NCBI GenBank assembly: GCA_021817985.1
Contig: JAKAFK010000025.1
Coordinates: 1 to 43,772, forward strand
Source: Pseudomonadota bacterium
GTDB lineage: Bacteria > Pseudomonadota > Gammaproteobacteria > Burkholderiales > JAKAFK01
DNA length: 43,772 nt
Direction: 5' to 3'
Below, in pieces: positions 20,377 through 43,772 of the stretch. The position numbers were made by a program, and so were the translations under genes. The notes under the pieces were generated by a model, which was given only the letters and a program-made list of their open reading frames with translations, was not told where the DNA came from and searched no databases. Position 1 is the stretch's first letter, and the number at the start of each line of letters is the position of its first letter.

Positions 20377-20379
20377 CCG

Positions 20380-20402
20380 CGCCGCCTGCCCGGCATGCGG
20401 CG
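20380..20402. terminator. Hairpin between convergent genes
   Basis: An interrupted GC hairpin (outer stem CGCCGC/GCGGCG, inner TGC/GCA) occupies the 28-bp gap between the convergent nucleotidyltransferase-like and potassium channel genes. No T-run follows on either strand. It may still serve as a bidirectional end signal; this is inferred from location and symmetry. Confidence 0.35.
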
Positions 20403-20404
20403 GG

Positions 20405-21619: not shown

Positions 21620-21831
21620 GCCGCACCTGTTGTTGTCGAACATGCCGCGCCAAGCGCCCGCGGCCCCGATGGGATTGTCGTTTGGCGCATGAAGACGCGC
21701 CGCGGAAGACAGGCGAGCCCGTCCCCGGGCTTGACATGCTCGCACTTTCTGCAATCCGAGCGCAAGCCGGATGGACGGGCCGCGGGACAGCGTGCTTGAG
21801 AAGGCAGGAACGCCTTGCGGCGCGGGCGCGC

Positions 21832-23193: not shown

Positions 23194-23580
23194 TCCTTGA
23201 TCCCCTTGACCGGTGACGGTCTCGTCGAAAGCGTCCCCGCAAGGTCGGCACAGGACGACCCCGGCCAACCTTACACCAAACTTACACGCATTATACTGTA
23301 TGTAAATGAACAACGCGCAAGCGGGGGAGGGTTCCCCGGGGGCGCTGGCGGATTCCCGGCCATGGACTATAACGGGAAGAAAAGCAAGTCCCGAGGTCGC
23401 GCCCCAAGCCGGGCCGCCGGTCGTCGAGGAGGGGCCGGCGGGTGCGCCGGCCATGCGCAGGGTGCGAAATTGCAAAAAAAACGAAGACAGATGCACGATG
23501 CGGCAACCCTTGCGTCGACCGGGGAGGCTCGTCCATGCGCGGCGGCGCGCCTGCCCGCCGCTTGAAGGGGCGCCTGCGGC
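23194..23580. other. 387-bp divergent intergenic region before exopolysaccharide genes
   Basis: This gap separates the GT2 gene (minus) from the sugar transferase gene (plus). It holds an unusually AT-rich patch near 23270-23315. Two copies of CTTACAC, 11 bp apart, are followed by ATTATACTG, giving TATAAT on the minus strand (23290-23295) and TATACT on the plus strand (23292-23297). No convincing -35 element, sigma-54 pair or PrsR-type box was found. The rest shows no coding signal. Confidence 0.6.
23272..23297. promoter_or_regulatory. Overlapping divergent -10 elements next to CTTACAC direct repeats
   Basis: TATAAT on the minus strand and TATACT on the plus strand overlap within eight bases, giving plausible divergent promoters for the GT2 and sugar transferase genes. 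Two CTTACAC repeats at an 11-bp interval, about one helical turn, abut the -10 elements and could be an operator. -35 elements are weak on both strands, as would fit activator dependence. Confidence 0.4.
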
Positions 23581-31255: not shown

Positions 31256-31355
31256 TGCCGGGACGACGGCGTCTGGAGGAGGAGGGCTCGGTGCGGGCAG
31301 CAACGTTTCGTGGTCATCCGCGCGGCCTGCACGGCCTTGCCACAGGGGTCAGGCA

Positions 31356-32414
31356 ATGGAACCTTCGATCCCGGAGTGGGTGATCCGCCTGTGCGAGGCC
31401 GGCGGGCGGGCGCCCTCCGCCGACAATTCGCAGCCCTGGCGGTTTGTCTGGGACGGCGAGGAGCTTCGGCTCACGGTGGATGAGGTGCGCGCGCAGGGCC
31501 TGGGGCAGGATCACCCAGCGCTTTTCCTGGCGCTGGGGGCGGTCATCGAGAACATCATTCAGGCCGTTCAGGCGGCAGGGTTGCCGCTGGCGTGCGTGCG
31601 GATGTCCGATGGCAGCGGACATCCGCGCGAGTTCCTGCGCGTGAGCGTTCCGCCCGACCGCCCGCTCATTCCCCGTGTGCCCGCATTGCTCGAGCGCCAC
31701 ACCCACCGCGGCGATTTCAGCAAGGCGCCTTTGCCGGCATCCGTCCGGGCGCGCCTGGGGGCCATGGAAGAGCCGCCCGCGCGCGCGATGATCCTTGAGG
31801 ATCGGGCAGTAATACGGCAATTGGCGCGACTGATCGAGCGTGCCTCCGAGGCCCGGTTCCGCAATCAGGAACTCCATCGCTGGTTCGCGCAGAGCCTCAG
31901 GTATGGGCATGAGGCCGACAAGGGCGACGGGCTGGCCGTCGACACGCTGCACCTTCCCCCCGGGGGGGCGCTCCTTCTGCGCTGGACCGCGGACTGGAAG
32001 CATATGGCGGCCTTGAACCGGTTCGGCGCGTACAAGCTGTTTGGCGGGTTGGAGGCGGCAAAGGTGCGGCGCTGCGGCGCGATCATCGCGATCATCGGCT
32101 CGACGCGCTCGCAGGCCTCGATGATCGCCTCGGGGCGCCTGATGGAGCGGATGTGGCTGCAGTTGAACGCCGATGGCGTCGCGGTCCATCCATTTTTCGG
32201 ACTGACGGATCAGGTGATCCGGTGGCGGCGGGGGTGGCTTCCGGCCGCCTTGCGCGAGCAGGCGGCGCGTATCGCAAAGGAGACGGCGGCGCTGTTGGGG
32301 CTGGGAGACGAGGAGGTGCTGATTGTCTTGCGCGCGGGGATGGCCAGGAAATCGCCCAAGAGATCGCGTCGCTTGCCCCTGAGCGAGGTGCTCGCCGTCG
32401 TTGCGCCCGCCTGA
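31356..32414 (+). CDS. Nitroreductase-fold protein, MoeY-like
   Basis: The 352-residue protein opens with RAPSADNSQPWRF (residues 18-30), the FMN-phosphate-binding start of nitroreductase-fold enzymes. It ends with a region (GSTRSQASMIASGRLMERMWLQLNADGVAVHPFFG) typical of the fold's C-terminal half. It is larger than ordinary nitroreductases and most resembles proteins annotated as putative molybdopterin biosynthesis protein MoeY, where a nitroreductase-like domain is fused to a ThiF domain. Here the partner is the separate ThiF-like gene 52 bp downstream. AGGGG precedes the ATG. Flavin binding and redox chemistry are inferred; the substrate is unknown. Confidence 0.75.
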   Translation: MEPSIPEWVIRLCEAGGRAPSADNSQPWRFVWDGEELRLTVDEVRAQGLGQDHPALFLALGAVIENIIQAVQAAGLPLACVRMSDGSGHPREFLRVSVPPDRPLIPRVPALLERHTHRGDFSKAPLPASVRARLGAMEEPPARAMILEDRAVIRQLARLIERASEARFRNQELHRWFAQSLRYGHEADKGDGLAVDTLHLPPGGALLLRWTADWKHMAALNRFGAYKLFGGLEAAKVRRCGAIIAIIGSTRSQASMIASGRLMERMWLQLNADGVAVHPFFGLTDQVIRWRRGWLPAALREQAARIAKETAALLGLGDEEVLIVLRAGMARKSPKRSRRLPLSEVLAVVAPA

Positions 32415-32466
32415 CGCGTCGGACCAAGGCAGACGGGCTGCCCTCGGCCCGGTCCGGGAGCGTTCT

Positions 32467-33327
32467 ATGACCAGTGCCTATGACTACTTCACGGCCTTCC
32501 AGCGCAATATCGGATTCCTTTCCAAGCCCGAGCAGGAACAGCTGCGGCGCGCGCGCGTCGCGGTCGCAGGGCTTGGCGGCACCGGCGGCGCACAAGTCCA
32601 TGCGCTCGCCAGGATGGGCGTTGGCGCATTTACCCTGGCGGATCCCGATGTCTTCGAACTGGCCAATTTCAATCGGCAAAGCGGTGCGTCCATGGAGACG
32701 CTCGGCCGAAGGAAGACCCACGTCGCCCGCGACGTGATCAAGGGCATCAACCCGGAGGCCGATGTCCGCTTGTTCGAGGAAGGCGTCAATGCGGGCAATA
32801 TCGAAGCCTTCCTCGACGACGTCGACGTCGTGGTGGATTCGCTGGATTTCTACTGTTTCGCCGAGCGTTTCCTGCTGTACCGGACGGCACGGGCGCGGGC
32901 GCTATGGGTCTTGACCTCCCCGCCGCTGGGGTTTGGCTTCAGCCTGCTGTGCTTCGATCCGCACGGGATGAGCTTCGAACGCTATTTCGATTTCTCGCCG
33001 ACGACGCCGGAACGCGCCTTGATCGCATCCTTCATCGTGGGCCTGGCGCCCAAGACGTTCTTTTTCCGGTACATGGACCTGGCGTCCACGGATGCCGCCG
33101 GCCATCGCGTGCCCTCGGTCGGTGCGGCGCCCTTCATGGTGGCTGGCGTGGTGGCCACGGAGGTGACGAACCTCCTCACGGGGAAGCGCCCCTCGATCGC
33201 GGTTCCCACCGTCGTGCAATACGATGCGCTCCTGCGCCGCTACCGCTGCCGGCGCTATCCCCTGGGGCTACGCGGTCCCTTCCAGCGCCTGAAGAAAGCG
33301 TTCTTCGAGCGGCGGGTCTTGAAATGA
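32467..33327 (+). CDS. ThiF/MoeB/HesA-superfamily E1-like adenylyltransferase
   Basis: The 286-residue protein has the E1 nucleotide-binding motif VAGLGGTGG (residues 33-41). The Asp after strand two (LADPDVFELANFNRQ, Asp59/Asp61) and the Arg finger in NFNRQ (Asn69-Arg70) follow, so ATP-dependent adenylation of a carboxylate is plausible. It lacks the two CxxC pairs that bind zinc in MoeB and ThiF and has only three Cys, so it is unlikely to be a normal molybdopterin or thiamine E1 enzyme. GGGAG lies six bases before the ATG at 32467. With the preceding nitroreductase-fold gene it resembles the two halves of the ThiF-nitroreductase (MoeY/Rv1355c-type) proteins. Confidence 0.82.
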   Translation: MTSAYDYFTAFQRNIGFLSKPEQEQLRRARVAVAGLGGTGGAQVHALARMGVGAFTLADPDVFELANFNRQSGASMETLGRRKTHVARDVIKGINPEADVRLFEEGVNAGNIEAFLDDVDVVVDSLDFYCFAERFLLYRTARARALWVLTSPPLGFGFSLLCFDPHGMSFERYFDFSPTTPERALIASFIVGLAPKTFFFRYMDLASTDAAGHRVPSVGAAPFMVAGVVATEVTNLLTGKRPSIAVPTVVQYDALLRRYRCRRYPLGLRGPFQRLKKAFFERRVLK

Positions 33328-33340
33328 GCGCCGAGCCGGT

Positions 33341-33357
33341 TGTCGGAATTTCTTACG
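33341..33357 (+). promoter_or_regulatory. Distal candidate PrsR box A
   Basis: TGTCGGAATTTCTTACG shares its first nine bases with box B at 33530. The identity extends upstream as CCGGT, giving a 13- to 14-bp identical core. It is 189 bp from box B, close to 18 helical turns. A role as distal enhancer is inferred. Confidence 0.45.
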
Positions 33358-33479
33358 GATCGCGCGCCTTTGGTTCACAGCCATCGCCGGGCGTCGCTGC
33401 CGCCATCGAAGGCGGCGTCCGCGCCCATATGCGGACGTGGTTTGGCACGCCGCCGGGGCGCTGGAGAGAGGCCGTCCGC

Positions 33480-33489
33480 GGGGGGGGGG
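33480..33489. repeat. Homopolymeric G tract (10 bp)
   Basis: Ten consecutive G residues lie between the two candidate enhancer boxes. Such tracts slip during replication and can alter expression, but could also reflect chance in GC-rich DNA or a sequencing/assembly error. Confidence 0.6.
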
Positions 33490-33529
33490 CGTCGCGGTCG
33501 AGCGAGCCTGGACGTACGCGGCGCCCGGT

Positions 33530-33546
33530 TGTCGGAATATTTTGCA
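33530..33546 (+). promoter_or_regulatory. Proximal candidate PrsR box B
   Basis: TGTCGGAATATTTTGCA starts 69 bp upstream of the GG of the sigma-54 promoter at 33597. The second PEP-CTERM gene has a similar box starting 70 bp before its GG. Position and likeness suggest the enhancer site for PrsR, the sigma-54 activator encoded 5 kb upstream. Binding is inferred. Confidence 0.6.
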
Positions 33547-33596
33547 TCCCTCGCCCCCCACGATTGTTGTCCATATATAAAACAGCGCGTTACATA

Positions 33597-33613
33597 TTGG
33601 CATGGTCTGTGCT
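33597..33613 (+). promoter_or_regulatory. Sigma-54 promoter of first PEP-CTERM gene
   Basis: TTGGCATGGTCTGTGCT matches the -24/-12 consensus (TTGGCACG-N4-TTGCT) at 15 of 17 positions when the four spacer positions count as free. GG and GC are correctly separated by 12 bp. Transcription would start near 33624, leaving a leader of about 73 bases. Confidence 0.85.
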
Positions 33614-33696
33614 AGTTATACCGTAGGCAGATCCACGCGCTCCTGTGGCTGCCGCGAGGCAAACCACTTGCGAACCTTCACTGAGGACTCTCAACT

Positions 33697-34509
33697 ATGA
33701 ACATGCACTCGATAAAGGCCTTGAGGAAGCCACTTGCCGCGGCACTGCTGCTCGGCGGGCTCGTGTTGGCCGGCGAGGCCTTGGCCGATCCGGCGTCCTT
33801 CCTTCCGTCCGCGTCACCGATCGTCTTCAAGTACAACAACAACGAAACCCTCATCACGGGTGCCGGTCAGACCCTGACGGGTATCTTCAGCATCACGCAA
33901 ATCACCAATCCCCTTGGGTCGACCACCTATTGGGCGACCGGGAGCCCAGCCTTCGACAACACCTTGCTGACCGGGGTGTTTACGGGGCTGATCTCCAATG
34001 CGCCGACTGGGACATCCCCCAACGTCAACATCACCTTCACGGGGGGCACGCTCGACGTCTACAACGTGCCGGTGGGGTCTTATGTGCCTACGAGTCCCGG
34101 CGACCCGATCGATTCGCAGATTTGCGGTGGCGCCTGCCCAGCGCCGTGGCTGACCTTCAACTTCACGCCGGGGATCGTTCCCAGCGAGCCGACGACGACC
34201 CTCTCTTCCACGGTGACCAGTGCGACGGCCCCGCTCACGGGCTCCGGCTTTGGCGAGTTGACCTTGACCGGCGGTACTGCCGCCGCGCACTTCAACAAGC
34301 TGTTCTCGCTCAACTCGAATATCTCTTCGTGCCCAGGCCCTGCCGGGACCGGCTATGCGGTGCTGTGCGGCAGTGCCGGTTCTTGGCCGGTCGTCAGCTT
34401 CGATCCGGTGACCGGTACGACGGTGCCGGAACCGGGAACGCTGTTCCTGATGGGGGCCGGTCTCCTGGGCATACCGCTGGTTCGCCGCCGTCGCGCTCGG
34501 GCCGCCTAA
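33697..34509 (+). CDS. Secreted PEP-CTERM sorting-signal protein, copy 1
   Basis: The 270-residue protein has a Sec signal peptide (cleavage near ALA|DP, residue 30) and a Thr/Ser/Gly-rich beta-type body. The C-terminal tripartite signal is VPEPG (from residue 243), a hydrophobic segment and RRRRARAA. PEP-CTERM proteins are cleaved and probably modified by exosortase, then displayed or released in the exopolysaccharide matrix. Its central CPAPWLTFNFTPGIVP and the Cys pairs in QICGGACPAPW and SSC...LCGS are shared with the paralogue at 35236, suggesting two disulphides. A sigma-54 promoter with PrsR-like boxes lies upstream. GAGGA precedes the ATG by about 11 bases. Confidence 0.92.
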   Translation: MNMHSIKALRKPLAAALLLGGLVLAGEALADPASFLPSASPIVFKYNNNETLITGAGQTLTGIFSITQITNPLGSTTYWATGSPAFDNTLLTGVFTGLISNAPTGTSPNVNITFTGGTLDVYNVPVGSYVPTSPGDPIDSQICGGACPAPWLTFNFTPGIVPSEPTTTLSSTVTSATAPLTGSGFGELTLTGGTAAAHFNKLFSLNSNISSCPGPAGTGYAVLCGSAGSWPVVSFDPVTGTTVPEPGTLFLMGAGLLGIPLVRRRRARAA

Positions 34510-34534
34510 ACGCGCAGCCAGCAGCGCCCAAATA

Positions 34535-34565
34535 CCGCCAGGCCCGCGTTTCGCCGGCCTGGCGG
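34535..34565 (+). terminator. Hairpin after first PEP-CTERM gene
   Basis: A perfect 10-bp stem (CCGCCAGGCC / GGCCTGGCGG) with an 11-base loop lies 25 bp after the stop. There is no T-run, so it may act as an mRNA 3'-end stabiliser or a weak terminator. Confidence 0.5.
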
Positions 34566-34759
34566 GTCAGGATTCCCGCGCTCGTCTTTCGCTCCCGTCA
34601 CCTTCCCATCGCCCCTGGAAGCCGCCTTCGCCGATTCGCGCCGACGACCCAATCGGCGGCGACGTTCGCTTCCCGAGCATCCTAGCCCGAACTTTGGCCC
34701 CCTGAAATAGCCGAACCTGTTGTCTGATTCGGTTGGGTGAGCAGCCTGCGCGCCCCGCG

Positions 34760-34941
34760 AGGATCGCAGAACTTGTGGCCGACAAGGGGCCCTTCCAGTT
34801 CTCGCTGTTCGACGAACGCATCGAGGAAGCGCGTGCCGAGCAGATCTCGTCGGATGCAAGGCTCGCCTGAGCACCCGGCCCACACCGGTTCACGACAAGG
34901 CCTTCCGCCTCCTGGGGGCGAGCCCGGCATGCACTCGGTAG
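34760..34941 (+). pseudogene. Remnant of an IS transposase (IS1634/IS4-like)
   Basis: Translation of 34760-34870 gives RIAELVADKGPFQFSLFDE followed by RIEEARAEQISS and a stop. The FQFSLFDE stretch resembles the core of IS1634-type transposases. In a shifted frame, 34867-34941 gives STRPTPVHDKAFRLLGASPA and a stop, resembling the conserved C-terminal tail of the same family (PTP-x(3)-(R/K)A-x-xLLG). Only these short pieces remain, so most of the element is deleted. The family call is from recalled motifs. It shows an insertion once lay between the two PEP-CTERM genes. Confidence 0.45.
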
Positions 34942-35059
34942 ATGACCCTAAAAACAAAAAAAGGGTTCGTCCAATCCATGGGCTAGTATTTACCGCCTTT
35001 CAAAGTTCGGCCTGGCGTCGACGCCCTGGATTGTCGGGGGCATCGCGCTTGCGCCGCCG

Positions 35060-35076
35060 TGTCGCGGTTTTTGACA
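35060..35076 (+). promoter_or_regulatory. Candidate PrsR box C
   Basis: TGTCGCGGTTTTTGACA shares the TGTCG start, T-rich middle and CA end with boxes A and B. It sits in a short dyad (GTGTC/GACAC, 35059-35077). It starts 70 bp before the GG of the sigma-54 promoter at 35128, matching the 69-bp spacing in the first PEP-CTERM gene. A C6 run follows it, as after box B. Confidence 0.55.
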
Positions 35077-35127
35077 CCTCCCCCCGACCGGGAAATCCAT
35101 GTCTCGCAAGAACAGCAGCTTATAAAC

Positions 35128-35144
35128 GGGGCATGGTTTCTGCT
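35128..35144 (+). promoter_or_regulatory. Sigma-54 promoter of second PEP-CTERM gene
   Basis: GGGGCATGGTTTCTGCT carries GG and GC 12 bp apart and shares GGCATGGT and TGCT with the promoter at 33597. The first two bases differ from the consensus TT. Transcription would start near 35155, giving a leader of about 81 bases. Confidence 0.78.
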
Positions 35145-35235
35145 TTACTTCGGCGTTGGGCGGCAGTTGCCGCCCGAGTGCACGCAACACTGAGGGGTGC
35201 GCTCATTTCTGCAACCATCCATGGAGCTGACCATT

Positions 35236-36087
35236 ATGAAGCAAGTAGTGTCTGCGTTTGCAAGACGAGCTCTTGCGACCGGCATCGCCGCCTTAGGGCT
35301 GGGGATGAGCGCCCAGACCTGGGCAACCCCGATGCTGCCATCGGCCACGCAGCTGACGATCAAGTATACCGACTATTCTTCCCTGTTCACGCCGAGTGGC
35401 ACGGTAATACCGGGAACCACCCCACCATCCGTGGGAGACGTATTTACCGAGATCTTTGCGATCTCCAGTATCGCTCAGGCGGCCAATCCCAGTAACGTTT
35501 ACTGGGCCAGCGATGTGACCGACGGCACGCAGCTGCTGGGCGTGGCCACGGACCTGAAAGTCACGAGCGTGGGGGTGGGACCCACTTTCCCGGCAACCTA
35601 CTCCGGCGGCACGACAACCATCTTTGAGGTTCCCAAGGGGAGCTTCAGTCCAGGGGCACCGTCGACCTCCCTGGCGGCCCTGGACGCGCAGGTCTGCCCG
35701 ACGACCGGGTGCCCGGCGCCGTTTCTGACGCTCAACTTCGTGCCTGGCATCATCCCCGGAGACGCGACGGATTCGCTTTCGACCACCACGACGGCTCTGA
35801 CGGCGCCCTTTACCGGCAGTGGCGCAGCCGATTTGTTGGTGACTGGAGGCAGCTTCGCCTCGCACCTCACCACGACCGGCAGTTTGGAGACGGATTTTGC
35901 GAGCTGTGCCGGGGCCACAGGCGCCTTTGCCAACCTTTGCAGCGCACCTGGGTCGACATGGCCGGACGTCAGCAACGACCCGGTGACCCTTACGACCCGG
36001 ACGGTTCCCGAGCCGGGTTCCGCGGCCCTGCTTGGGCTGGGGCTGAGTGTGATGGCCTGCTCGCGCCGCCGGGTCAAACGTCGCTGA
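35236..36087 (+). CDS. Secreted PEP-CTERM sorting-signal protein, copy 2
   Basis: The 283-residue protein starts at the ATG at 35236, where GGAG lies about nine bases upstream; in-frame upstream ATGs are less well placed. It has a signal peptide ending near TWA|TP (about residue 33) and a Thr/Ser-rich body. The C-terminal VPEPG (from residue 257) is followed by a hydrophobic stretch and CSRRRVKRR. It is a paralogue of the protein at 33697, sharing CPAPFLTLNFVPGIIP, APFTGSG, the four Cys positions and DPVT just before the sorting signal. A Cys at the membrane-basic junction is absent from copy 1. It has its own sigma-54 promoter and a strong terminator. Confidence 0.92.
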   Translation: MKQVVSAFARRALATGIAALGLGMSAQTWATPMLPSATQLTIKYTDYSSLFTPSGTVIPGTTPPSVGDVFTEIFAISSIAQAANPSNVYWASDVTDGTQLLGVATDLKVTSVGVGPTFPATYSGGTTTIFEVPKGSFSPGAPSTSLAALDAQVCPTTGCPAPFLTLNFVPGIIPGDATDSLSTTTTALTAPFTGSGAADLLVTGGSFASHLTTTGSLETDFASCAGATGAFANLCSAPGSTWPDVSNDPVTLTTRTVPEPGSAALLGLGLSVMACSRRRVKRR

Positions 36088-36100
36088 CGGGCACGTCTGG

Positions 36101-36865
36101 TCAGTCTCCACCGGGGCGGGAGTTCTTTATCTCGCCCCTTTTTTTGTCCGTTCCGGCCGGCGCATCCAGGTGCTTGAGAAGGCGGGCGGGCACCCCGCCC
36201 CAGACTTCGCGCGGTCCGATCCGCGTGTCCTTCGGCACCACGGCGCCGGCGGATATGATTGCCCCGTCCCCGACCGTGACGCCCGCCATGAGGATGGCGG
36301 CCGCACCGACAGTCACATCGTTGCCGATGCGGATGGCCTTGAGGGCAAGGCGGCGACCTTCTATCGCGTGGGCAAACAATGTCGCGCCGTGGCCGATGAT
36401 GCAGTTGTCCCCGACGACGGTTAGCGGCGGGTCGAGGGCGACGCCTGCGATGTAGGTGTTGCGTCCCAGTCTCGCGCCAAGGGCAAGGTAAATCAGGCGC
36501 AGCAAGGGCACGGGAATCAGGTGGGTGCGAATGAGCGGATTAAAGAAGATTAGATAAAATAACATGTTGACGTGCACGGCGAACTCCTGGCGTGACTTCT
36601 CTTCAACATCGCCCTCCGTCAGCGGGAACACGAGCAGAAACAGGCGGTACCCCAGGAAGGCAAAGAGATAGGTCAGCACGACCGCCAGCACGGTCAGCGC
36701 CACGCCCCGGAAATCGCCGAGCGGCAGCGTTCGGAACGAAACGGCCGTGCATGCGATGCCCAGTGAGATGATCGCGCAAGACATCAATGCGAAGGCGATG
36801 ATTTGAGAGGCGGTGATCCTGCGCACGATATGTCCGGATGTCGAGGTTCGCGTTCGTGTGGCCAC
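36101..36865 (-). CDS. Membrane-anchored hexapeptide-repeat acyltransferase
   Basis: The 254-residue protein has two N-terminal hydrophobic segments (about residues 18-45 and 53-80) and an amphipathic linker. A left-handed beta-helix of hexapeptide repeats follows (VVGDNCIIGHGATLF ... IRIGNDVTVGAAAILMAGVTVGDGAIISAGAVVPKDT), ending with the familiar WGGVPARLLK. The fold is that of acetyl- or acyl-transferases that modify sugars or lipids. The GTG start at 36865 falls inside a hairpin. The gene is last in the minus-strand run from 43535, and its 3' end overlaps the terminator of the convergent PEP-CTERM gene. The acyl acceptor is unknown. Confidence 0.82.
   Translation of the reverse strand: MATRTRTSTSGHIVRRITASQIIAFALMSCAIISLGIACTAVSFRTLPLGDFRGVALTVLAVVLTYLFAFLGYRLFLLVFPLTEGDVEEKSRQEFAVHVNMLFYLIFFNPLIRTHLIPVPLLRLIYLALGARLGRNTYIAGVALDPPLTVVGDNCIIGHGATLFAHAIEGRRLALKAIRIGNDVTVGAAAILMAGVTVGDGAIISAGAVVPKDTRIGPREVWGGVPARLLKHLDAPAGTDKKRGEIKNSRPGGD
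36113..36145 (+). terminator. Intrinsic terminator of the second PEP-CTERM gene
   Basis: A 9-bp stem (GGGGCGGGA / TCTCGCCCC, one G-T pair) with an 8-base loop is followed by seven T residues. It lies 25 bp after the stop codon and inside the last codons of the acyltransferase gene on the other strand. Confidence 0.9.
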
Positions 36866-36896
36866 GGCGGGAGCGAGTGGCGCTTGCTCCCGCCGT
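36864..36896 (-). promoter_or_regulatory. Strong hairpin spanning devB end and acyltransferase start codon
   Basis: A 14-bp stem (one G-T pair) with a 5-base loop begins two bases after the devB-like stop and reaches into the GTG start of the acyltransferase. It could end transcription of the exporter genes or hide the downstream start. No T-run follows. The structure is direct; the role is inferred. Confidence 0.6.
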
Positions 36897-36898
36897 CT

Positions 36899-37912
36899 TC
36901 AGGGTGCCGCCCGCATGCGGGTGTCCACGGTCATGCCGAGCTTGAGCGGCGTTTTCTCAAGGAGCGCGACCTTCACCTGGGCGACCTTCAGCCCGAGATT
37001 CACGGCCGGGTTGCTCGGACGAACCTTCCTCACGCCGACGTAATCAGCGATCTGCGCGACGCGCCCGCGGAACACCCGGCCCGGGTAGGCATCCGAGGTG
37101 ATCCGCACGGGTTCCCCCAGGACCACCTTGCCGATGTCGGTTTCATCCACTTCCGCATTGACCCATATCTTATTCAGGTCGGCCACGTCGACTATGGGGA
37201 TTTCCGGGGTGACGCCTTCTCCCGGCTCGACATAGCGCTGGATCACCACGCCCGAGATGGGCGAGCGGATGAGCGTTTTCCCGAGCAGCGCACGCGCATA
37301 GTCGAGCTGGGCCCGGGCCAACTCGACCTTGTTCCGGTAGACGGTCACCGTCTGCGGCTTCGGCCCCGCCCGAAGCAGTTTTTCCCGTTGTGCCGCCTCT
37401 TCGACGGCCGCCTGGGCAGACCGGAAGGCCCTCTCCTCCTTGTCCAGGGCCGCCGGGGACACCATGCCTTCGCGACGCAGCTCTCGATAGCGCACCACTT
37501 GCCGTGCGGCCTCGTCGAGAACGGCCTTGGCGCCCTGCAAGGCGGCGGCCGCTTCCTTGATTTGCTGGGGACGTGCGCCGGCCTCGAGATCGGCCAACTG
37601 GCTCTGCGCGAGCGCCAGGTTGGCGGCCGCCTGGTTGACCGCGGCTTTGAGATCCCGGTTCTGAAGCACCGCGACGACTTGGCCGGCCCTGACCGATTGC
37701 CCCTCGCTGACCAGGATGCTTTCGACCTTGCCGTTGAGTTCGCCGGTGCCCACGTTGACGTCGAAGCCGGGCAGCGCTTCGACCCTGCCTTGGGCGGCGA
37801 CGTAAGCCGGCGGCTCGGGGGACACCGTTTGAGGCGATTTTCTTTTCCCGCCCCAGATACCGAGCAGGATGCCGAGTGCCAGGAGGGGAAGCAAGAACCA
37901 CAGTTTCTTCAT
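36899..37912 (-). CDS. HlyD-type membrane fusion protein of ABC exporter (DevB-like)
   Basis: The 337-residue periplasmic adaptor has one N-terminal membrane helix (residues 4-21). A split biotinyl-lipoyl domain follows (GKVESILVSEGQSVRAGQVVAVLQNRDL and IRSPISGVVIQRYVEPGEGV) on either side of a long alpha-helical hairpin (about residues 95-200). A beta-barrel domain completes it. It would connect the inner-membrane ABC permease to a TolC-type outer-membrane channel. Order and domains fit the DevBCA exporter family, known for glycolipid export in cyanobacterial heterocysts. It overlaps the ATPase gene by 4 bp. Confidence 0.88.
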   Translation of the reverse strand: MKKLWFLLPLLALGILLGIWGGKRKSPQTVSPEPPAYVAAQGRVEALPGFDVNVGTGELNGKVESILVSEGQSVRAGQVVAVLQNRDLKAAVNQAAANLALAQSQLADLEAGARPQQIKEAAAALQGAKAVLDEAARQVVRYRELRREGMVSPAALDKEERAFRSAQAAVEEAAQREKLLRAGPKPQTVTVYRNKVELARAQLDYARALLGKTLIRSPISGVVIQRYVEPGEGVTPEIPIVDVADLNKIWVNAEVDETDIGKVVLGEPVRITSDAYPGRVFRGRVAQIADYVGVRKVRPSNPAVNLGLKVAQVKVALLEKTPLKLGMTVDTRMRAAP

Positions 37913-38583
37913 GCCATGAGTTTCCCGTCTTCAAGGAGGGCAATGCGGTGGGCGAGGGCCTCAACCTTGGGGTCGTGGCTCACGACCGCAACGGCCTTGC
38001 CCGATTCCTCCGCCAGCGCCTTGAGAAGGCCGATGATGTCCTTGCCGGTCTTCGAGTCGAGATTGGCGGTCGGCTCGTCGGCGAGCACGATGGGGGGATC
38101 CCCCGCCAAGGCGCGGGCAAGCGCGGTGCGCTGCTTTTCGCCGCCGCTCAAGTCGGCCGGGTAGAGGTGGGCGCGTTTGGCGAGCCCGACGCGCGCGAGC
38201 AGATCCCTCGCGATCACCCGGCTCTGGGCTTTGTCGACGCGCTTCAGGCGAAGCACCAACTCGATGTTTTCCGCGGCGGTCAGGGCAGGGAAGAGGTTGA
38301 AGGCCTGGAAGACGAACCCCAGGAAGTGCCTGCGAACGTCCGGGAGATCGGCCTCGGACAAATCGCTCACCCGCCGTCCCTCAATGTAGATCTCGCCGCT
38401 CGTAGGGCGCAGAATGCAGCCCATCATCGACAATAGCGACGTCTTTCCGGAGCCCGACGGGCCCATGATGAGGAGCAACTCGCGGCGTGCCAAGGCGAGC
38501 GTGACCGAATCGACCGCCACCACCCGGTTCTCGCCCTGACCATAGATCTTGCTGATGTTCTTCACGAGCAGCGCGGGTTCCAT
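37909..38583 (-). CDS. ABC exporter ATPase (DevA/LolD/MacB type)
   Basis: The 224-residue ATPase has Walker A GPSGSGKTS (Lys47), Q-loop FVFQAFNLFPALTAAENIEL, signature LSGGEKQRTALARAL, Walker B IVLADEPTANLD and switch His in VVSHDPKVEALAH. The sequence class is that of type VII exporters (LolD, MacB, DevA), which work with FtsX-like permeases by mechanotransmission. It starts one base after the permease stop and overlaps the adaptor gene, so all three form one unit. Confidence 0.93.
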   Translation of the reverse strand: MEPALLVKNISKIYGQGENRVVAVDSVTLALARRELLLIMGPSGSGKTSLLSMMGCILRPTSGEIYIEGRRVSDLSEADLPDVRRHFLGFVFQAFNLFPALTAAENIELVLRLKRVDKAQSRVIARDLLARVGLAKRAHLYPADLSGGEKQRTALARALAGDPPIVLADEPTANLDSKTGKDIIGLLKALAEESGKAVAVVSHDPKVEALAHRIALLEDGKLMA

Positions 38584-38584
38584 G

Positions 38585-39727
38585 TCACCCCTTGAACACG
38601 GATACGGGGTCGAGCGTGCGGATCTTGCCGACCGAGAAGTAGGCCGAGCCTAGGCAGGCGAGGAGCAGAACGACGAACAGCGCGACAAACACGGCGGCGC
38701 TGAGGTGGAACGGGACGCCGGCCCGCTCGACAGTCCCTTCGGCCGACAGCACGACAACGGTCGCGAGCCCATAGCCTGCCACGGCGCCGATGACGGCTTG
38801 GCTGAAGATGACCTGGTAGATCTCGCCGTTTCTCGCGCCGATGGCCTTCAGCGTTCCGAATTCCCTCAGGTGTTCGATCGTGCTGGCATAGATCGTCTGC
38901 CCCACGATGCTGCCCCCGATGACCGTCGCCAGGAGTGCGGTGAGGAAAAACGCCATCCCCAGCCCCGTTTCAATCGTCCAGTATTTGACGCTCTTGGCGA
39001 TAAAGCCGTCCCGGGTGAACACATCGTTGTCCGGAAGCTCGCGCCGCAGGGCCGCCGCGACCCGGCTTGCATTGCTCCCAGGCCGCAGCTTGGCGACGAT
39101 GAATGCCGTCTGCCCCGGCCACCCCACGTCCGCCATCCATTGGCTCAGCGCGTTATAGTCCATGAACACGATGGGCGAGGTCGTGAAGCTTCGAATGCCT
39201 TGGGAGATGCCCACAAGCTTGAAGGATTGCGGCCTGTTGGCGAAATCGAGTTCCCAGTTGCTCCCGATGGTCAGCGGTCCGAGGCGCGGTTCGGCGCTCT
39301 CGTCCAGAATCATGAAGTCTCCGCCCTTGACGTCGGCTGCGTTTCCCACGCGCATGGCCCAGGGCGCCCCGAGCCCCGTATTGGGGTTGTATCCGATCAT
39401 CTGCACCTGTTCCAGGCCGCCATCCGGCAATTTGAGATTGCCATAGGCCAGCAGAATCTTGCCTGCGCGCTCGACTTCAGGCAGCGCGCGCACGCGGTCG
39501 ATGACTTCTTCCGAAAAAGGCAGCGCGAAATCGAAGGTCTGAATGTTGCGCGAGGTCACCCAGATGTCCGCGTCCGTATGGAGGATAAGGGCCGTTGCGT
39601 TGCGCATGCTGCCAAGATAGATGGCCACCTGCACCAAGACGAGCACGGCGGACACCGTGATGCCGATCAACGTGATGGCCAGCCGGATCTTCTCGTGAAA
39701 AAGCATCTTCAGGGCAAGCCAGAGCAT
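38585..39727 (-). CDS. FtsX-like ABC exporter permease (DevC type)
   Basis: The 380-residue permease has one N-terminal helix (about residues 15-40), a periplasmic MacB-like core domain of about 210 residues and three C-terminal helices (about 265-375). It ends GKIRTLDPVSVFKG, a typical FtsX-family tail. This four-helix topology is that of the DevC/MacB/LolCE group, which moves lipids, peptides or lipoproteins rather than small hydrophilic solutes. It heads the exporter trio and lies 160 bp after the glycosyltransferase gene on the same strand. Confidence 0.92.
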   Translation of the reverse strand: MLWLALKMLFHEKIRLAITLIGITVSAVLVLVQVAIYLGSMRNATALILHTDADIWVTSRNIQTFDFALPFSEEVIDRVRALPEVERAGKILLAYGNLKLPDGGLEQVQMIGYNPNTGLGAPWAMRVGNAADVKGGDFMILDESAEPRLGPLTIGSNWELDFANRPQSFKLVGISQGIRSFTTSPIVFMDYNALSQWMADVGWPGQTAFIVAKLRPGSNASRVAAALRRELPDNDVFTRDGFIAKSVKYWTIETGLGMAFFLTALLATVIGGSIVGQTIYASTIEHLREFGTLKAIGARNGEIYQVIFSQAVIGAVAGYGLATVVVLSAEGTVERAGVPFHLSAAVFVALFVVLLLACLGSAYFSVGKIRTLDPVSVFKG

Positions 39728-39887
39728 GGCGTTCGTGTTCGCTTGTGTGTCGTGTCGGGGATCATCGTGGTGGGGCGCAACGCGAGCCCGCGCGCGTCCT
39801 TACGCCCCCGAACGTCTGTTTTGCGCCCGAGGCCGCTCGTAGGCGATCTCTATGCTCAGCATACACGACCCGGGCGCCCGCACGCCT

Positions 39888-41177
39888 CTAAACCAGGGTC
39901 AATTCGGCCGCCTGCTGGGGCGCCCCGGCGCCCCGCATGTGCTCAGGGCTGCCCGCGGCTCCCGCGTCCAGGGCCTCCGCCAGCACGCGCTTGACGGCCT
40001 CTCCAGGTGCAAGGCGCGCGAGGACGGATTGGAGCTCTCGCGCGCGCTGGGCGGGCTGCGCGGTGGCCAGCAGGTGCTGTGCCGTCGACCGCAAGCTCTT
40101 GGCACGGGCCTTGCCGGCGCGGACGGCGCAGCCCACGCCCGCGCGTTCCAGCAGCGTCATATTGAGATATTGATCCAAATTGCCGGGCAACCCGATGACC
40201 GGCACGCCGGCAGCCAGCGCTTGATAGCAGGTCGGGCTGCCGCCGTTGCAGATCACGAGCCGCGCGCGTGCCGCCGCTTCGCTTCCCGGGAGGAAGTCGC
40301 TCACCCGCGCATTCGGCGGGACGGCCCGGGGGCGGCATCGGCCGGCCGTCGCGGCGAGCACGAATACAGGCAAGTCGCGCAGGGCTTCGAGGACGTAGCC
40401 CAGCAACGCACTCTCGCCGGAGCTGCCCAGCGTCACGTAGACGATCGGGCAATCGTCGGGCACTTCGCCCCACCAGTCCGGCCTTCTGACCGCGGGCGAC
40501 CAAAGCAAGGGGCCGATGAAGCGGTGTGTGGAGGGAAGCCCGGAGGTCGGCACCAATTCGGGCAAGTCCGCAAACAACGTGTAGTCGGCATAGGTATAGA
40601 CGGTCCTGACATCGCCCTCGAGCGGCGCAAGACCGAACCATTTGCGCGCCTGATTGAGTGGCCGCGCATGCAGCGCAAAGGCCAGCGGACGCGCGATATC
40701 GAACACCCGCTGGCCGAGCCGGGGTCCGAGCACCCGCGCAAGGAGCAACTCGGGCACGGGATAGTCCAGCAGGGCATGGGGACTCCAGTAGGCGTTGGTG
40801 ATCGTGACATAGGGCGTGCGGGCGAGCCTCGTGCTGATCGCGAGCGATAGGCGAAAATCGCCCACCACCGCATCGGGTTTGAACGCCTGCATGACCGCCA
40901 GGTCCTCATGGACGTAGCGGACGATATCGCGGGTGGAATAGATCGGCAGCCCGCGAGACAGCGCTCGCGTGAACTGGTGGTCCGGAATGGTCCGCAGCGG
41001 CTGCAGGCGGGCGGGAAGGTCGCCCAGCAACGCGTTGTAGCGGGGATCGCACGCGAGGCCGACCTCGTAGTATCGCGGATCGAGGGCGCGCGCAAGCGCG
41101 GCGAGTCGGCCGACATGCGCGAGACTTACTGCTTCTGCCATCAACAGGATCCGGATTTTCTCTTGCTGCCGATGCAT
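39888..41177 (-). CDS. UGT/MGT-family (GT1) glycosyltransferase
   Basis: The 429-residue protein has the GT-B fold pattern of GT1 enzymes. It has an N-terminal acceptor domain (IRILLMAEAVSLAHVGRLAALA) and a C-terminal nucleotide-sugar domain with IVYVTLGSSGE. The donor-binding region is ARLVICNGGSPTCYQALAAGVPVIGLPGNLDQYLN, where NGG-S stands for the usual H-G-G motif. Relatives glycosylate lipids, carotenoids, macrolides and rhamnolipids. The ATG at 41177 shares one base with the upstream stop (TAATG), with GGAGGGG just before it, so it is translationally coupled to the second nitroreductase-fold gene. Acceptor and donor are unknown. Confidence 0.87.
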   Translation of the reverse strand: MHRQQEKIRILLMAEAVSLAHVGRLAALARALDPRYYEVGLACDPRYNALLGDLPARLQPLRTIPDHQFTRALSRGLPIYSTRDIVRYVHEDLAVMQAFKPDAVVGDFRLSLAISTRLARTPYVTITNAYWSPHALLDYPVPELLLARVLGPRLGQRVFDIARPLAFALHARPLNQARKWFGLAPLEGDVRTVYTYADYTLFADLPELVPTSGLPSTHRFIGPLLWSPAVRRPDWWGEVPDDCPIVYVTLGSSGESALLGYVLEALRDLPVFVLAATAGRCRPRAVPPNARVSDFLPGSEAAARARLVICNGGSPTCYQALAAGVPVIGLPGNLDQYLNMTLLERAGVGCAVRAGKARAKSLRSTAQHLLATAQPAQRARELQSVLARLAPGEAVKRVLAEALDAGAAGSPEHMRGAGAPQQAAELTLV

Positions 41178-42517
41178 TATGACCCCCCTCCGGAAGGTGG
41201 CGGGGTACGCGCCGGGAGGGACGCCGCCCGCCGTATTACCAGTTCGGCCAGCGGCCTGCGCAACGAGCGCCAGACGGGCGTGGGCCCGGCCCCGATTCTG
41301 CCCATGAAGACGGTCCTGGGTGCCGCCTCGTTGCCCAGAAGCCGCCGGAGCCTGCGTTCGCCCATCTCGGCTTGGCGCCAAGCCGCCGCGACCGAGGTGA
41401 AGGCTCGCGCCTGTCGCACGTAACGGGAAAAGATCAGCGGCGTCATTTCGGGCTGGAGGCTCAAGCCCAGCCGGGTTGCCGTGAGCCAGAACCGCTGCAG
41501 CGCGCGTCCGGCCTCGACGTAATCGTCCACTGTCGTGGGCTCCGATTGCGACAAGAGGGCAAAATGGGCCGCGCACGCAAGGCTGGGCAGCCAGTCGAGT
41601 TCGAGACGGGGTAACCAGGTGCCGGCGAGGAAACGGTTGAAGAACTGCACCCGCCGCCAGCTTTTCATGGCGATGCACATCAAGCGAAGGCTCAGGAAAT
41701 CGAGCCCGACGGCCCGGTCGGGCACCCTGTCGGCGCTGAAGCCGGCGTTCCATTCGATGATCTCACGGTGGACGCGATATGCCTCGGGCGTGGTCAGGCG
41801 AATCTTGGCATTCGCGAACATCAGCCGGGCCGCCTGCAGGCGGGCGGACAGCCCTTCGATCCAAAGCACGCCGTAGGCGGGTCCCACCGCCGCTTCGAGC
41901 GCCTTTTTCTCCTCCGCGGCCAAGGGGCGGGTGGCCATCGGGCGGCGCTGGACGGACCGCCGGGGAATGAAAGCGATGAGCGGGCTTGGGCATCCTCCGG
42001 GATCGGGTTCGAGCATGATGTCGAAGGTGGGCATGGTGTCAGGCAGGCCGGACCTGCGCGTGCACGAGGCGCGCTGGCGTTCTCCGCTGGCCGCGAGACC
42101 GATCGTCTCGAGCAGCGCGCCGATGGAGAGCTGGCTTGCGTGCCCATCCAGATCGTAGACGCAGCGATCCCGCGTATCGAAGCCGTGAACGACGATGCCC
42201 GAATCGCCCGCCATCTCGAAGCGCCACGGTTGCGTGTTGTCCCCGCTTGGGGCCCAGCGCGCAAGCGCAAGAATGCGCTCGCGGCTCGTCGGGCGCTCGA
42301 GCGCCTCGCCAAGCGATGGGGCGTTTGGCCCGGCGGGGCGTTGGCGCGCCTCCACCCACAAGGCGGCGCGCCGGAAGGGGCCGTGCGGGCCGATGGGCCG
42401 CCGCGGCATGCCCAAACGGGCACCGGCCCCGCCCAAAGCGGCGAGGGCCGCCGGTTCTTGGGGCAGGATCTGTTGCCTTTCGGGCGAGTCAGCGGATGCC
42501 GCGTGCACACGCTTCAT
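41177..42517 (-). CDS. Nitroreductase-fold protein, second copy
   Basis: The 446-residue protein carries LARWAPSGDNTQPWRFE around residues 85-101, the FMN-binding start motif also found in the gene at 31356. It shares that protein's larger size and insertion-rich middle. The first 75 residues are Pro/Ala/Arg-rich without clear fold; the true start may be the ATG at residue 37 (MPRRPIGPHG). A redox role on a product shared with the FeeM-like enzyme and the glycosyltransferase is inferred from co-orientation and the TAATG junction with the next gene. It is not a close copy of the first nitroreductase. Confidence 0.72.
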   Translation of the reverse strand: MKRVHAASADSPERQQILPQEPAALAALGGAGARLGMPRRPIGPHGPFRRAALWVEARQRPAGPNAPSLGEALERPTSRERILALARWAPSGDNTQPWRFEMAGDSGIVVHGFDTRDRCVYDLDGHASQLSIGALLETIGLAASGERQRASCTRRSGLPDTMPTFDIMLEPDPGGCPSPLIAFIPRRSVQRRPMATRPLAAEEKKALEAAVGPAYGVLWIEGLSARLQAARLMFANAKIRLTTPEAYRVHREIIEWNAGFSADRVPDRAVGLDFLSLRLMCIAMKSWRRVQFFNRFLAGTWLPRLELDWLPSLACAAHFALLSQSEPTTVDDYVEAGRALQRFWLTATRLGLSLQPEMTPLIFSRYVRQARAFTSVAAAWRQAEMGERRLRRLLGNEAAPRTVFMGRIGAGPTPVWRSLRRPLAELVIRRAASLPARTPPPSGGGS

Positions 42518-42580
42518 CCTAGGCAGACGTCCGGCCGTGGAAGGGCGAAGCAGCGCATGGGGCGAGGGAAGGCCGGATGC

Positions 42581-42597
42581 CGCCCCAGGGCGGGGCG
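42581..42597 (-). terminator. Small hairpin between feeM-like and nitroreductase-fold genes
   Basis: A perfect 6-bp stem (CGCCCC/GGGGCG) with a 5-base loop lies in the 196-bp gap. No T-run follows. It might attenuate transcription into the downstream genes. Confidence 0.3.
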
Positions 42598-42713
42598 TTC
42601 AACCGGATGATGAGCAACGACATGACACGCGAGGCGGCATAACCGCGGCTGGAGCGAGGGTACCGAGTGCACGCATTGGGCGGGCCGTTCGAGCCAAGGC
42701 GCCGCGCGGCTCC

Positions 42714-43535
42714 TTATCCGTAATGGGCGATCCGGGCACCGGGCGCGTTGGAGGTGTCCTGCGAAGAAGCCGCGGACGAATTGGCCTTGAGCCGTTGCGT
42801 GATACCGAGTTCGTCCTGCGCCGAGAAAAAATAGGGGTACAGCGACCGGGTCCCCGTGGCCTTCTCCATCAGTCCGCCGAACTTGGCGATCTGGGCTTGT
42901 CCCCACTGAAGGTCGACGCGCAGCAGCAGGGCGGGCGCGTTGACCCGGGGGCAGAGCTTTTCCAGACCCAATTCGGTAAAGCCCAACATCCGCTTGTAGA
43001 ATGCCGCATGCCGAGGGTTGACCTCGATCACGAAATCGGTGCCGCCGTGAATCCTCCGGCCATAGATGAACGCGATGTGAAAGAGGCTGGCAAGTACCTG
43101 CTTCGACTTGATCTGGGGGTCGACGGCGAGCCGGGTGAGTTCGCACACGCGGCGTCCTTGTCGACGCAGGGCGTCGATCTCGGGCTTGTACAGATCGTCC
43201 ACCAGGAGGCCCACCGACGAGTCGTAGCCGACCGTCAGGGTCGCGACGACCGACTCGTCGGTGGAGGCCACCAGGGTGACCCGATTGGGCTCGCGTTCGG
43301 CCGGGTTGGTCAGGGCATAGCCGCGCCACGCATACATGCGCTGGATGAGCAGGCTTGCCGACTCGCGCCGGTCGCGGGAGTTGGCCAGACGGATCTTGAA
43401 GGTCTGCTGCTCGACGGCGATTTCCCGCGTGGCGACGGGGTCGGGCTCGATGCACAAATCCTGCAATCGATGGGGCGATTCGAAGGAGATGATGGTCTTA
43501 TCCCAGCATTCGGCCTCCACGCGCCGTTGATTCAT
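42714..43535 (-). CDS. FeeM-like N-acyl amino acid synthase (GNAT fold)
   Basis: The 273-residue protein resembles FeeM-type long-chain N-acyl amino acid synthases, which transfer an acyl group from acyl carrier protein to an amino acid and share a fold with acyl-homoserine lactone synthases. Visible features are FKIRLANSRDRRESASLLIQ, RVTLVASTDESVVATLTVGY, the strand VCELTRLAVDP, and the GNAT-like end DFVIEVNPRHAAFYKRMLGF. Such synthases are known to occur near PEP-CTERM/exosortase genes. I start at the ATG at 43535, which has GGGAGG seven bases upstream; the frame is open further upstream. It is the first gene of the minus-strand run that includes the glycosyltransferase and exporter. Confidence 0.8.
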   Translation of the reverse strand: MNQRRVEAECWDKTIISFESPHRLQDLCIEPDPVATREIAVEQQTFKIRLANSRDRRESASLLIQRMYAWRGYALTNPAEREPNRVTLVASTDESVVATLTVGYDSSVGLLVDDLYKPEIDALRRQGRRVCELTRLAVDPQIKSKQVLASLFHIAFIYGRRIHGGTDFVIEVNPRHAAFYKRMLGFTELGLEKLCPRVNAPALLLRVDLQWGQAQIAKFGGLMEKATGTRSLYPYFFSAQDELGITQRLKANSSAASSQDTSNAPGARIAHYG

Positions 43536-43697
43536 GACGGGACCTCCCGCAGTCAGTAGCTCGTTGCTATGTCTCAGGAATACTAGCGCATCGAGGTCCC
43601 GAAATTCATGAATCTTCCGTAATGCCCGATGCCCCTGGGCGCTATCAAGTTTGCGCGCGCGGTGCCGTAGAATGGCTGTCAAGGTGGAGATGATGCT

Positions 43698-43772
43698 GTG
43701 CCCGGTGGCAAGGCGGAAGCGTCCACAACGTGGTTGCCTGTGATGAGTGAGACGCCGAAGAACAATCCAGAG
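43698..43772 (+). CDS. Possible 5' end of a divergent gene, cut by window edge
   Basis: From a GTG at 43698, with GGAG eight bases upstream, a frame stays open for 25 codons to the window end (VPGGKAEASTTWLPVMSETP...). An in-frame ATG at 43743 is an alternative start. It would diverge from the FeeM-like gene across a 162-bp gap. The visible part is too short to assign a family. Confidence 0.3.
   Translation, partial: MPGGKAEASTTWLPVMSETPKNNPE

Follow-up and report, generated by a model that had tools for sequence, protein, structure and literature searches.

A candidate acyl-oxazolone-type lipid pathway with tailoring and export genes beside an XrtA/PEP-CTERM system in a Burkholderiales genome

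What would a bacterium with an XrtA/PEP-CTERM system make with a block of lipid-enzyme genes that lies directly behind prsT? The question is raised by contig JAKAFK010000025.1 of a Pseudomonadota bacterium of the order Burkholderiales (assembly GCA_021817985.1, genome G000 of our comparison set). The contig (C11) was analysed as a whole, and this stretch of 43,772 nucleotides, with 67% GC and ending at the contig end, is referred to as the window. Its positions 31356–43535 hold an island that encodes a FeeM-type N-acyl amino acid synthase (FeeM), a ThiF/E1-like protein (ThiF), two flavin-dependent oxidases (NR1 and NR2), a GT1-fold glycosyltransferase (GT1), a hexapeptide acyltransferase and a DevBCA-type exporter, together with two PEP-CTERM proteins. 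We conclude that the island probably encodes a lipid pathway akin to OxzAB, TyzABC and TrzAS, combined with tailoring and export genes and accessory to bacteria with an XrtA/PEP-CTERM system. The core chemistry is already known; the glycosylated, exported branch and the nesting of ThiF with PEP-CTERM genes appear new within the openly readable literature that was searched, with subscription papers lying outside it.

The acyltransferase, cyclase and oxidase core

The frame for this reading comes from a small group of pathways. In Mycobacterium tuberculosis, TyzA acylates tyrosine, the ThiF protein TyzB cyclises the product with ATP, and the oxidase TyzC desaturates it with O2, which yields an acyl-oxazolone (PMC10404671). 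TrzAS follows an equivalent route for tryptophan, in which cyclisation precedes desaturation (PMC12856293). Both papers also refer to OxzAB of Pseudoalteromonas rubra, an earlier-described oxazolone synthetase; what was found in P. rubra and in mycobacteria is the cyclised form (PMC10404671, PMC12856293).

All three functions have counterparts in the island. FeeM (42714–43535, minus strand, 273 aa) scores 187.8 bits against PF21926 (cut-off 27) and matches the FeeM structure PDB 2g0b at E=8.2e-14; its ATG at 43535 is preceded by a Shine-Dalgarno-like GGGAGG. ThiF (32467–33327, plus strand, 286 aa) is a PF00899 protein of the NF006077/PRK08223 type, with 331.7 bits against NF006077 (cut-off 266) as measured on the slightly longer open reading frame (ORF) 32401–33327. 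Its adenylation residues R70, K83, D124 and D127 are unchanged across all 35 aligned relatives, and its cysteines lie at positions 130, 162 and 261 only, so that there is no CxxC pair. NR1 (31356–32414, plus strand) has the nitroreductase/Acg fold and lies above the cut-offs of PF00881 and PF14512, while NR2 (41177–42517, minus strand), likewise of nitroreductase fold, also passes PF00881; the matches to NF047509 and NF005901 fall below cut-off. In an alignment of 83 flavin-dependent oxidase (FDO) rows, NR1 and NR2 retain every invariant column, and the motif of the flavin mononucleotide site is intact.

From homology we infer that FeeM would acylate an amino acid, perhaps tyrosine or phenylalanine, with a fatty acyl group, that ThiF would adenylate the carboxylate and close the ring to a 5-oxazolone, and that NR2 and/or NR1 would use O2 to desaturate the 2,3 bond. 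The predicted product is an acyl-oxazolone, or an N-acyl dehydroamino acid after ring opening. The initial annotation, made from the DNA letters alone, had named the genes of the island, and all of them are present, with small boundary corrections. Its sequence of acylation, adenylation and oxidation fits the order of the published trio chemistry (PMC10404671, PMC12856293, PMC12479983), but the class of the pathway and the ring closure by ThiF had escaped it; overall, its interpretation is partly supported. The island resembles OxzAB in combining an acyltransferase, a ThiF-like cyclase and a flavin-dependent oxidase, and OxzB-like ThiF-oxidase fusions occur in related genomes. Unlike OxzAB, its ThiF lies ~9 kb from FeeM and NR2, and it has a second oxidase and the added GT1, hexapeptide acyltransferase and DevBCA. 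TyzA/TyzB/TyzC and TrzA/TrzS share the three functions, TyzA being structurally FeeM-like, and for these systems the order of steps has been studied in vitro.

As a sub-case of the same pathway, the end product could be an open-chain N-acyl dehydrotyrosine or dehydrophenylalanine of the kyonggic/thalassotalic acid type, with ThiF only activating the acid for the oxidase and the ring opening afterwards; we rate this as a serious possibility, if somewhat short of an even chance. It is favoured by three clusters, one of them from Massilia, a betaproteobacterium, but their open acids may be work-up products, because by general chemistry oxazolones hydrolyse easily. The clusters in question come from the producers of kyonggic acid (Massilia kyonggiensis), thalassotalic acid (Thalassotalea) and stieleriacine (Stieleria) and contain the same trio of N-acyl amino acid synthase, ThiF and nitroreductase; their products are open-chain N-acyl dehydrotyrosines or relatives, with no oxazolone observed (PMC12479983). 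Against it stands the cyclised product of P. rubra and mycobacteria (PMC10404671, PMC12856293).

A very different reading takes ThiF as a bacterial ubiquitin-like conjugation or cofactor protein and the nitroreductases as general detoxifying enzymes. ThiF does match MoeB/ThiF structures and the E1 domains of E1-E2 defence models, but among the padloc E1-E2 models its best match reaches only 53.8 bits, and this weak similarity is confined to the common E1 core, so that a ubiquitin-like or defence assignment was rejected. Its score for the specific family NF006077 lies well within that family, and its recurring neighbours are an acyltransferase and an oxidase, with no search by name made for E2 or JAB genes. 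This explanation is therefore extremely improbable.

Three further observations concern the core proteins. In the family model NF011425, which has 989 positions, FeeM aligns to 69–204, ThiF to 313–586 and an oxidase from 621 onwards. A real FeeM-ThiF-oxidase triple fusion was considered, and none of 299 genomes of the phylum exceeds the cut-off of this model; the one-polypeptide layout is therefore a model-level hint only. FeeM was also tried as the PEP-CTERM/exosortase acyltransferase TIGR03694, to which it gives no match at E≤1. Elsewhere in G000, further acyltransferase genes matching PF13444 (Acetyltransf_5) are found at G000:C78:13679-13984 and G000:C83:12220-12465 (L001, L002), and these two are not among the strong FeeM-family matches.

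Neighbourhood conservation and the two oxidases

Is the island a stable unit or a chance neighbourhood? The whole block recurs in the same arrangement in G001, a sister genome from the genus, with identities of 78-95% (92% for ThiF). This synteny, together with the recurrence of the core in many families, indicates that the island is not due to chance. The recurrence was assessed across 200 genomes, comprising G000 itself and others from the same genus and order (codes Gnnn), with thresholds of E≤1e-40 for ThiF, E≤1e-20 for strong FeeM, E≤1e-60 for PrsT, E≤1e-30 for GT1 and E≤1e-15 for the hexapeptide acyltransferase. ThiF is present in 35 of these genomes, strong FeeM in 37 and PrsT in 54. 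Flanks of at most ~10 kb per side were inspected around the 35 ThiF genes, several of them shortened by contig ends (for example to 3.7 kb in G127), and they contain FeeM at 29 loci, an oxidase at 30, GT1 at 10 (in six families) and PrsT at 13. FeeM is absent from the flanks in G049, G091, G102, G110, G127 and G156, and an oxidase in G049, G056, G091, G117 and G166. By a rough model that treats genomes as independent, and of which only the order of magnitude is meaningful, the 29 FeeM adjacencies have a chance probability of ~1e-49. In most relatives the trio genes are adjacent or fused, ThiF and oxidase forming one protein in 8 of the 35 (G033, G045, G050, G062, G077, G094, G119, G158); in the genus of the window they form two groups ~9 kb apart, ThiF with NR1 and FeeM with NR2. 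A wider sample, the best 80 of at least 520 named ThiF relatives, chosen by similarity to the window protein (codes Lnnn), overlaps the first by at least two loci (L145 and L185 correspond to the loci of G102 and G087); BLAST finds FeeM or an oxidase at 57 of these 80 loci.

The presence of two oxidases raises the further question of whether one pathway or two are encoded. A tree of the 83 oxidase rows, built by a quick method, has two deep clades with full support, NR2 falling in the larger (clade 2) and NR1 in the other (clade 1). Outside the genus, the nearest member of the NR1 clade comes from Ca. Accumulibacter adjunctus (L109), and most planctomycete partners are more distant. At these loci ThiF is more often partnered by a clade-2 oxidase, and every ThiF-oxidase fusion of the tree belongs to clade 2. 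The window and G001 are the only members of this sample that combine oxidases of both clades at one locus. This division would suit two systems side by side: ThiF with NR1 on the plus strand, and a cyclase-free set of FeeM, NR2, GT1, DevBCA and acyltransferase on the minus strand, which would export a glycosylated N-acyl dehydroamino acid. Consistent with such a split, ThiF has NR1 as its neighbour and GT1 is coupled to NR2, and L109 and L108 have an NR1-type oxidase (FDO1), ThiF and FeeM without an NR2-type one (FDO2) in the fetched stretch. However, the closest named relatives of the window ThiF (62-66%, among the best 80) include L107 and L110, whose oxidases belong to clade 2; many clade-2 oxidases are adjacent or fused to ThiF; and the genome has a single ThiF of this family at E≤1e-40. 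We therefore regard two separate systems as rather unlikely and retain a single oxazolone-type pathway as the preferred reading.

The flanks of the core genes hold some recurring features of their own. The G001 contig runs on beyond FeeM into a gene for a PilZ protein and then hemB, and FeeM often adjoins PilZ (YcgR-like) and/or hemB (L036:17848-20000, L039, L038, L090, L098, L100, L103, L110, L185), which points to a constant position in the chromosome and perhaps to a cyclic-di-GMP link. A protein of ~350 aa is common to G017, G081 and G172, where it is encoded between the oxidase gene and ThiF, directly beside ThiF (L040, L102, L103). At L049 and L050 (G030 and G017), a FeeM-family match adjoins an ORF of ~800 aa with ThiF and oxidase domains of a distant type, possibly a second oxazolone-type locus.

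Tailoring and export genes

Do the remaining genes of the minus strand belong to the same pathway? Read inwards from the contig end, their order is FeeM, NR2, GT1, DevC, DevA, DevB and the hexapeptide acyltransferase. GT1 (39888–41177) matches PF06722/PF00201 and is of the natural-product glycosyltransferase type, with CalG1/OleD-type relatives in the PDB; its ATG at 41177 shares one base with the NR2 stop codon (TAATG), and a GT1 ORF of 621 aa is over-extended. The hexapeptide (LbH) acyltransferase (36101–36865, minus strand; PF00132) has two hydrophobic N-terminal segments, near residues 17-45 and 49-82; the initial description as a membrane acyltransferase is corrected to an enzyme of the hexapeptide type behind a membrane anchor. 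Gene linkage suggests that GT1 could glycosylate the product, for example at a phenol or enol OH, and that the anchored acyltransferase might add an acyl group, for example to the sugar.

GT1 is found in 13 of the 200 genomes, 12 of which also have ThiF (p=1.6e-9), and in 10 it lies inside the ThiF locus. It directly follows the oxidase or the ThiF-oxidase fusion in G029, G033, G045, G077 and G119. Outside the ThiF locus, GT1 lies ~2.8 kb from PrsT in G062 and directly beside a DUF1302-ABC-LolA-like exporter in G110; in G063, which has no ThiF, an FtsX permease ~1.1 kb away from it shares 81% identity with a ThiF-near permease of G106, of the same genus. The hexapeptide acyltransferase has matches in 10 of the 200 genomes, and the six strong ones (E<1e-50) are all in genomes with ThiF. 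Relatives at 60-61% occur in G172 and L107. Its gene stands directly 3' of PrsT in G033 and G077, ~0.5 kb past PrsT in G015, and after PrsT and GT1 in G172. Among the 80 named loci, relatives of GT1 are found at eight and of the acyltransferase at three, one of them weak. L151, from the cultivated Pelomonas sp. CA6, combines GT1, an oxidase, ThiF and PrsT in a single locus.

The exporter consists of a DevC-type permease with MacB_PCD and FtsX domains (38585–39727), a DevA-type ABC ATPase (37909–38583) and a DevB-type membrane fusion protein (36899–37912; PF16576), all on the minus strand. With a DevC/DevA gap of 1 nt and an ATGA overlap between DevA and DevB, the three subunits lie in one operon. 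DevBCA is the glycolipid exporter of heterocysts. The window set resembles it as a three-gene ABC exporter whose DevA and DevC find their best families in TIGR02982 and TIGR01185 and whose DevB comes close to the cut-off of TIGR02971, but membership of the heterocyst type was rejected, the scores being 134.2 bits for DevC (cut-off 290.35), 213.9 for DevA (cut-off 295.8) and 123 for DevB (cut-off 129). Because all three fall short, the exporter is called DevBCA-type here, and a lipid other than that of heterocysts is expected. It would move the glycolipid out of the inner membrane, as its linkage suggests.

Exporters recur beside the core elsewhere, in two forms. DevC, DevA and DevB form an unbroken same-strand array together with ThiF and an oxidase and/or FeeM at 5 of the 80 named loci, namely L113 (Rokubacteria), L120, L125 and L152 (Planctomycetota) and L147 (Alphaproteobacteria); L118 has DevB alone, at a contig edge. 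For DevC beside ThiF in other phyla, TIGR01185 is the sole match at E≤1e-15, with 89-159 bits and thus below the cut-off, as for DevC of the window. A second set near ThiF or FeeM, found in several families, comprises two FtsX permeases, an ABC ATPase, a LolA-like protein (PF17131) and DUF1302, and it probably serves to export lipid to the outer membrane. Searches with trimmed queries found three or more of its four part types at 8 of the 35 and 10 of the 80 loci; loci with the set include L033, L039, L092, L099, L084 and L089. A lipid exporter close to the core is thus a repeated theme, carried out by differing machines. In the mycobacterial tyz region, the RND gene mmpL9 lies nearby as a possible exporter (PMC10404671).

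Alternatively, GT1, the acyltransferase and DevBCA might serve an unrelated glycolipid or an exopolysaccharide part and lie beside the oxazolone genes by chance. The heterocyst role of DevBCA, the gaps of 160 nt between DevC and GT1 and of 196 nt between NR2 and FeeM, the position of the acyltransferase behind PrsT and outside the FeeM-ThiF operon in G033, G077 and G015, and the statistical weakness of the ThiF links inside PrsT genomes all fit this view. It is countered by the placement of GT1 directly behind the oxidase or fusion in five genomes, by the 12 of 13 GT1 genomes that have ThiF, and by the unbroken arrays of DevCAB and core genes from Planctomycetota, Rokubacteria and an alphaproteobacterium, and we consider it improbable. 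The initial annotation had tied these three elements to the trio and proposed a comparison of neighbourhoods; carried out across related genomes, that comparison found conserved co-occurrence, and the ties recur beyond the genus.

The published record was searched for the same combination. The mycobacterial papers PMC10404671 and PMC12856293 contain neither 'PEP-CTERM' nor 'glycosyl' in their available text, and the text of PMC12479983 on the kyonggic acid, thalassotalic acid and stieleriacine clusters, as far as available, is without 'export', 'transporter' and 'glycosyl'. Searches joining oxazolone or acyl-tyrosine terms with 'glycosyltransferase' returned pathway papers that lack the latter word in their accessible portions, and in PMC13385065 and PMC13190842 the terms are unconnected as far as the text goes.

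Association with the PEP-CTERM system

Why would such a pathway lie behind prsT? PrsT (28478–31255, plus strand; TIGR02917, 798.9 bits, cut-off 312.2) is encoded immediately 5' of NR1 and belongs to an XrtA/PEP-CTERM system for which G000 has PrsK, PrsR, PrsT and PEP-CTERM substrates, with two exosortase genes elsewhere in the genome. PrsT is present in 34 of the 35 ThiF genomes, compared with 54 of 200 overall (Fisher 3e-23), and in 36 of the 37 genomes with strong FeeM; counted by family, ThiF goes with PrsT in 20 of 21, among 50 families in all (p=2e-8). Of the PrsT genomes, 20 are without this ThiF and 15 without both ThiF and strong FeeM. Craig, Cherry and Brady reportedly linked long-chain N-acyl amino acid synthases to PEP-CTERM/exosortase loci in 2011, in work on the synthase. 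The FeeM-type synthase is shared with those loci, whereas here ThiF, the oxidase, GT1 and exporters take part in the association too. In a gene table for Rubrivivax, ThiF-type proteins are listed near PEP-CTERM and polysaccharide genes (PMC3684757), and other literature that joins 'PEP-CTERM' with 'ThiF' is unrelated to such a link in its accessible text (PMC3226654, PMC2887384).

The two halves of the island enclose the PEP-CTERM proteins PEP1 (33697–34509) and PEP2 (35236–36087), both on the plus strand and above the cut-off of PF07589. They are paralogues, with 41-42% identity in cross-matches with G001, and an assignment as PepA flocculation proteins (NF033554) was rejected at 33.4 and 13.7 bits (cut-off 80), PEP1 being only distantly PepA-like. 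Upstream of PEP1 lie two plus-strand copies of a 17-nt element (33340–33356 and 33529–33545; repeat family D5), a candidate PrsR-type motif 1, the nearer copy 52 nt ahead of a sigma-54-like -24/-12 box (33598–33613, 10 of 12 consensus letters). PEP2 has such a box as well (35129–35144, 9 of 12), and both boxes, on the plus strand, are also in G001. In layout, the arrangement of element and box is the one described for PrsR-regulated PEP-CTERM genes (PMC1569441). The element was defined from its two window copies, and with up to three mismatches it has two matches in the window, a number equalled in 7 of 100 shuffles; genome-wide there are two exact and five one-mismatch matches, compared with one for the reversed pattern. 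In so GC-rich a window, sigma-54 consensus matches are not rare, and GT1 itself contains one of 11 of 12 letters; the boxes therefore count by position and not by score.

Several observations weigh against an oxazolone-type pathway with tailoring and export that is accessory to the PEP-CTERM system. The window ThiF lies ~9.4 kb from FeeM, on the opposite strand and beside a second oxidase, whereas elsewhere these genes are mostly adjacent. At two columns that hold Gln in 73 of the 83 oxidases, NR1 has Glu and His, and the mutated TrzS residues R540 and Q651 cannot be placed on NR1 or NR2, for which alignments to nitroreductase PDB entries are N-terminal only. By BLAST, 23 of the 80 named loci have neither FeeM nor an oxidase; among six of these examined, with ten neighbours tested, four have a TIGR03694 acyltransferase near ThiF (L132, L136, L149, L150), and L122 and L129 have no acyltransferase among the proteins tested, which include PepA-type PEP-CTERM proteins that pass the family cut-off in L122 only. 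A complete DevBCA stands at the locus in just 2 of the 35 genomes, G000 and G001, both of this genus, and the next closest DevC (39%; G029, G062) lie on other contigs with DevA and DevB and no other island gene nearby. Within PrsT genomes, the links to ThiF are weak (p=0.011 for GT1, 0.05 for the acyltransferase and 0.15 for DevC), and therefore part of the signal across the 200 genomes reflects shared PEP-CTERM presence. Finally, PrsR-type elements are seen only ahead of PEP-CTERM genes, and none at the lipid genes.

Since G014, the exception among the ThiF genomes, combines FeeM, ThiF and NR2 with neither PrsT nor an exosortase match, and mycobacteria make oxazolones, the lipid pathway does not need PEP-CTERM. 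The tentative idea of the initial annotation, a lipid that modifies PEP-CTERM proteins or serves as their anchor, finds no direct support. The most likely role is that of a cell-surface or secreted lipid beside the exopolysaccharide/PEP-CTERM matrix, as a signal or matrix lipid and not a protein anchor. It is highly improbable that the exported acyl-oxazolone glycolipid is itself part of the exosortase system, as lipid acceptor or electrophilic acyl donor (azlactone) for processed PEP-CTERM proteins, whose head group GT1 and the acyltransferase would build and which DevBCA or a Lol-like transporter would bring to its place; if true, this would supply the long-missing cell-surface anchor of PEP-CTERM proteins. 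The young lipid class of OxzAB, TyzABC and TrzAS gains a predicted glycosylated and exported branch, with two testable exporter types, DevBCA and the Lol-like set with its LolA-like protein and DUF1302. Moreover, a ThiF cyclase, besides the N-acyl amino acid synthase, closely tracks the PEP-CTERM system in one bacterial order, and the question of which lipids a PEP-CTERM/exosortase lifestyle needs becomes testable by simple deletions.

Promoter and terminator scans of 31200-43772 stay within ~1 standard deviation of shuffles, and a strong terminator-like site (36113-36138), overlapping the acyltransferase gene at its end, lies 3' of PEP2. Outside the island, tandem repeats were looked for at 20300-23700 and none was found, and two plus-strand ORFs in 20405-24912 had no match in NCBIfam. 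On the minus strand of that interval, ORFs resemble an ion-channel/TrkA-like protein and a family-2 glycosyltransferase, as judged by eye only.

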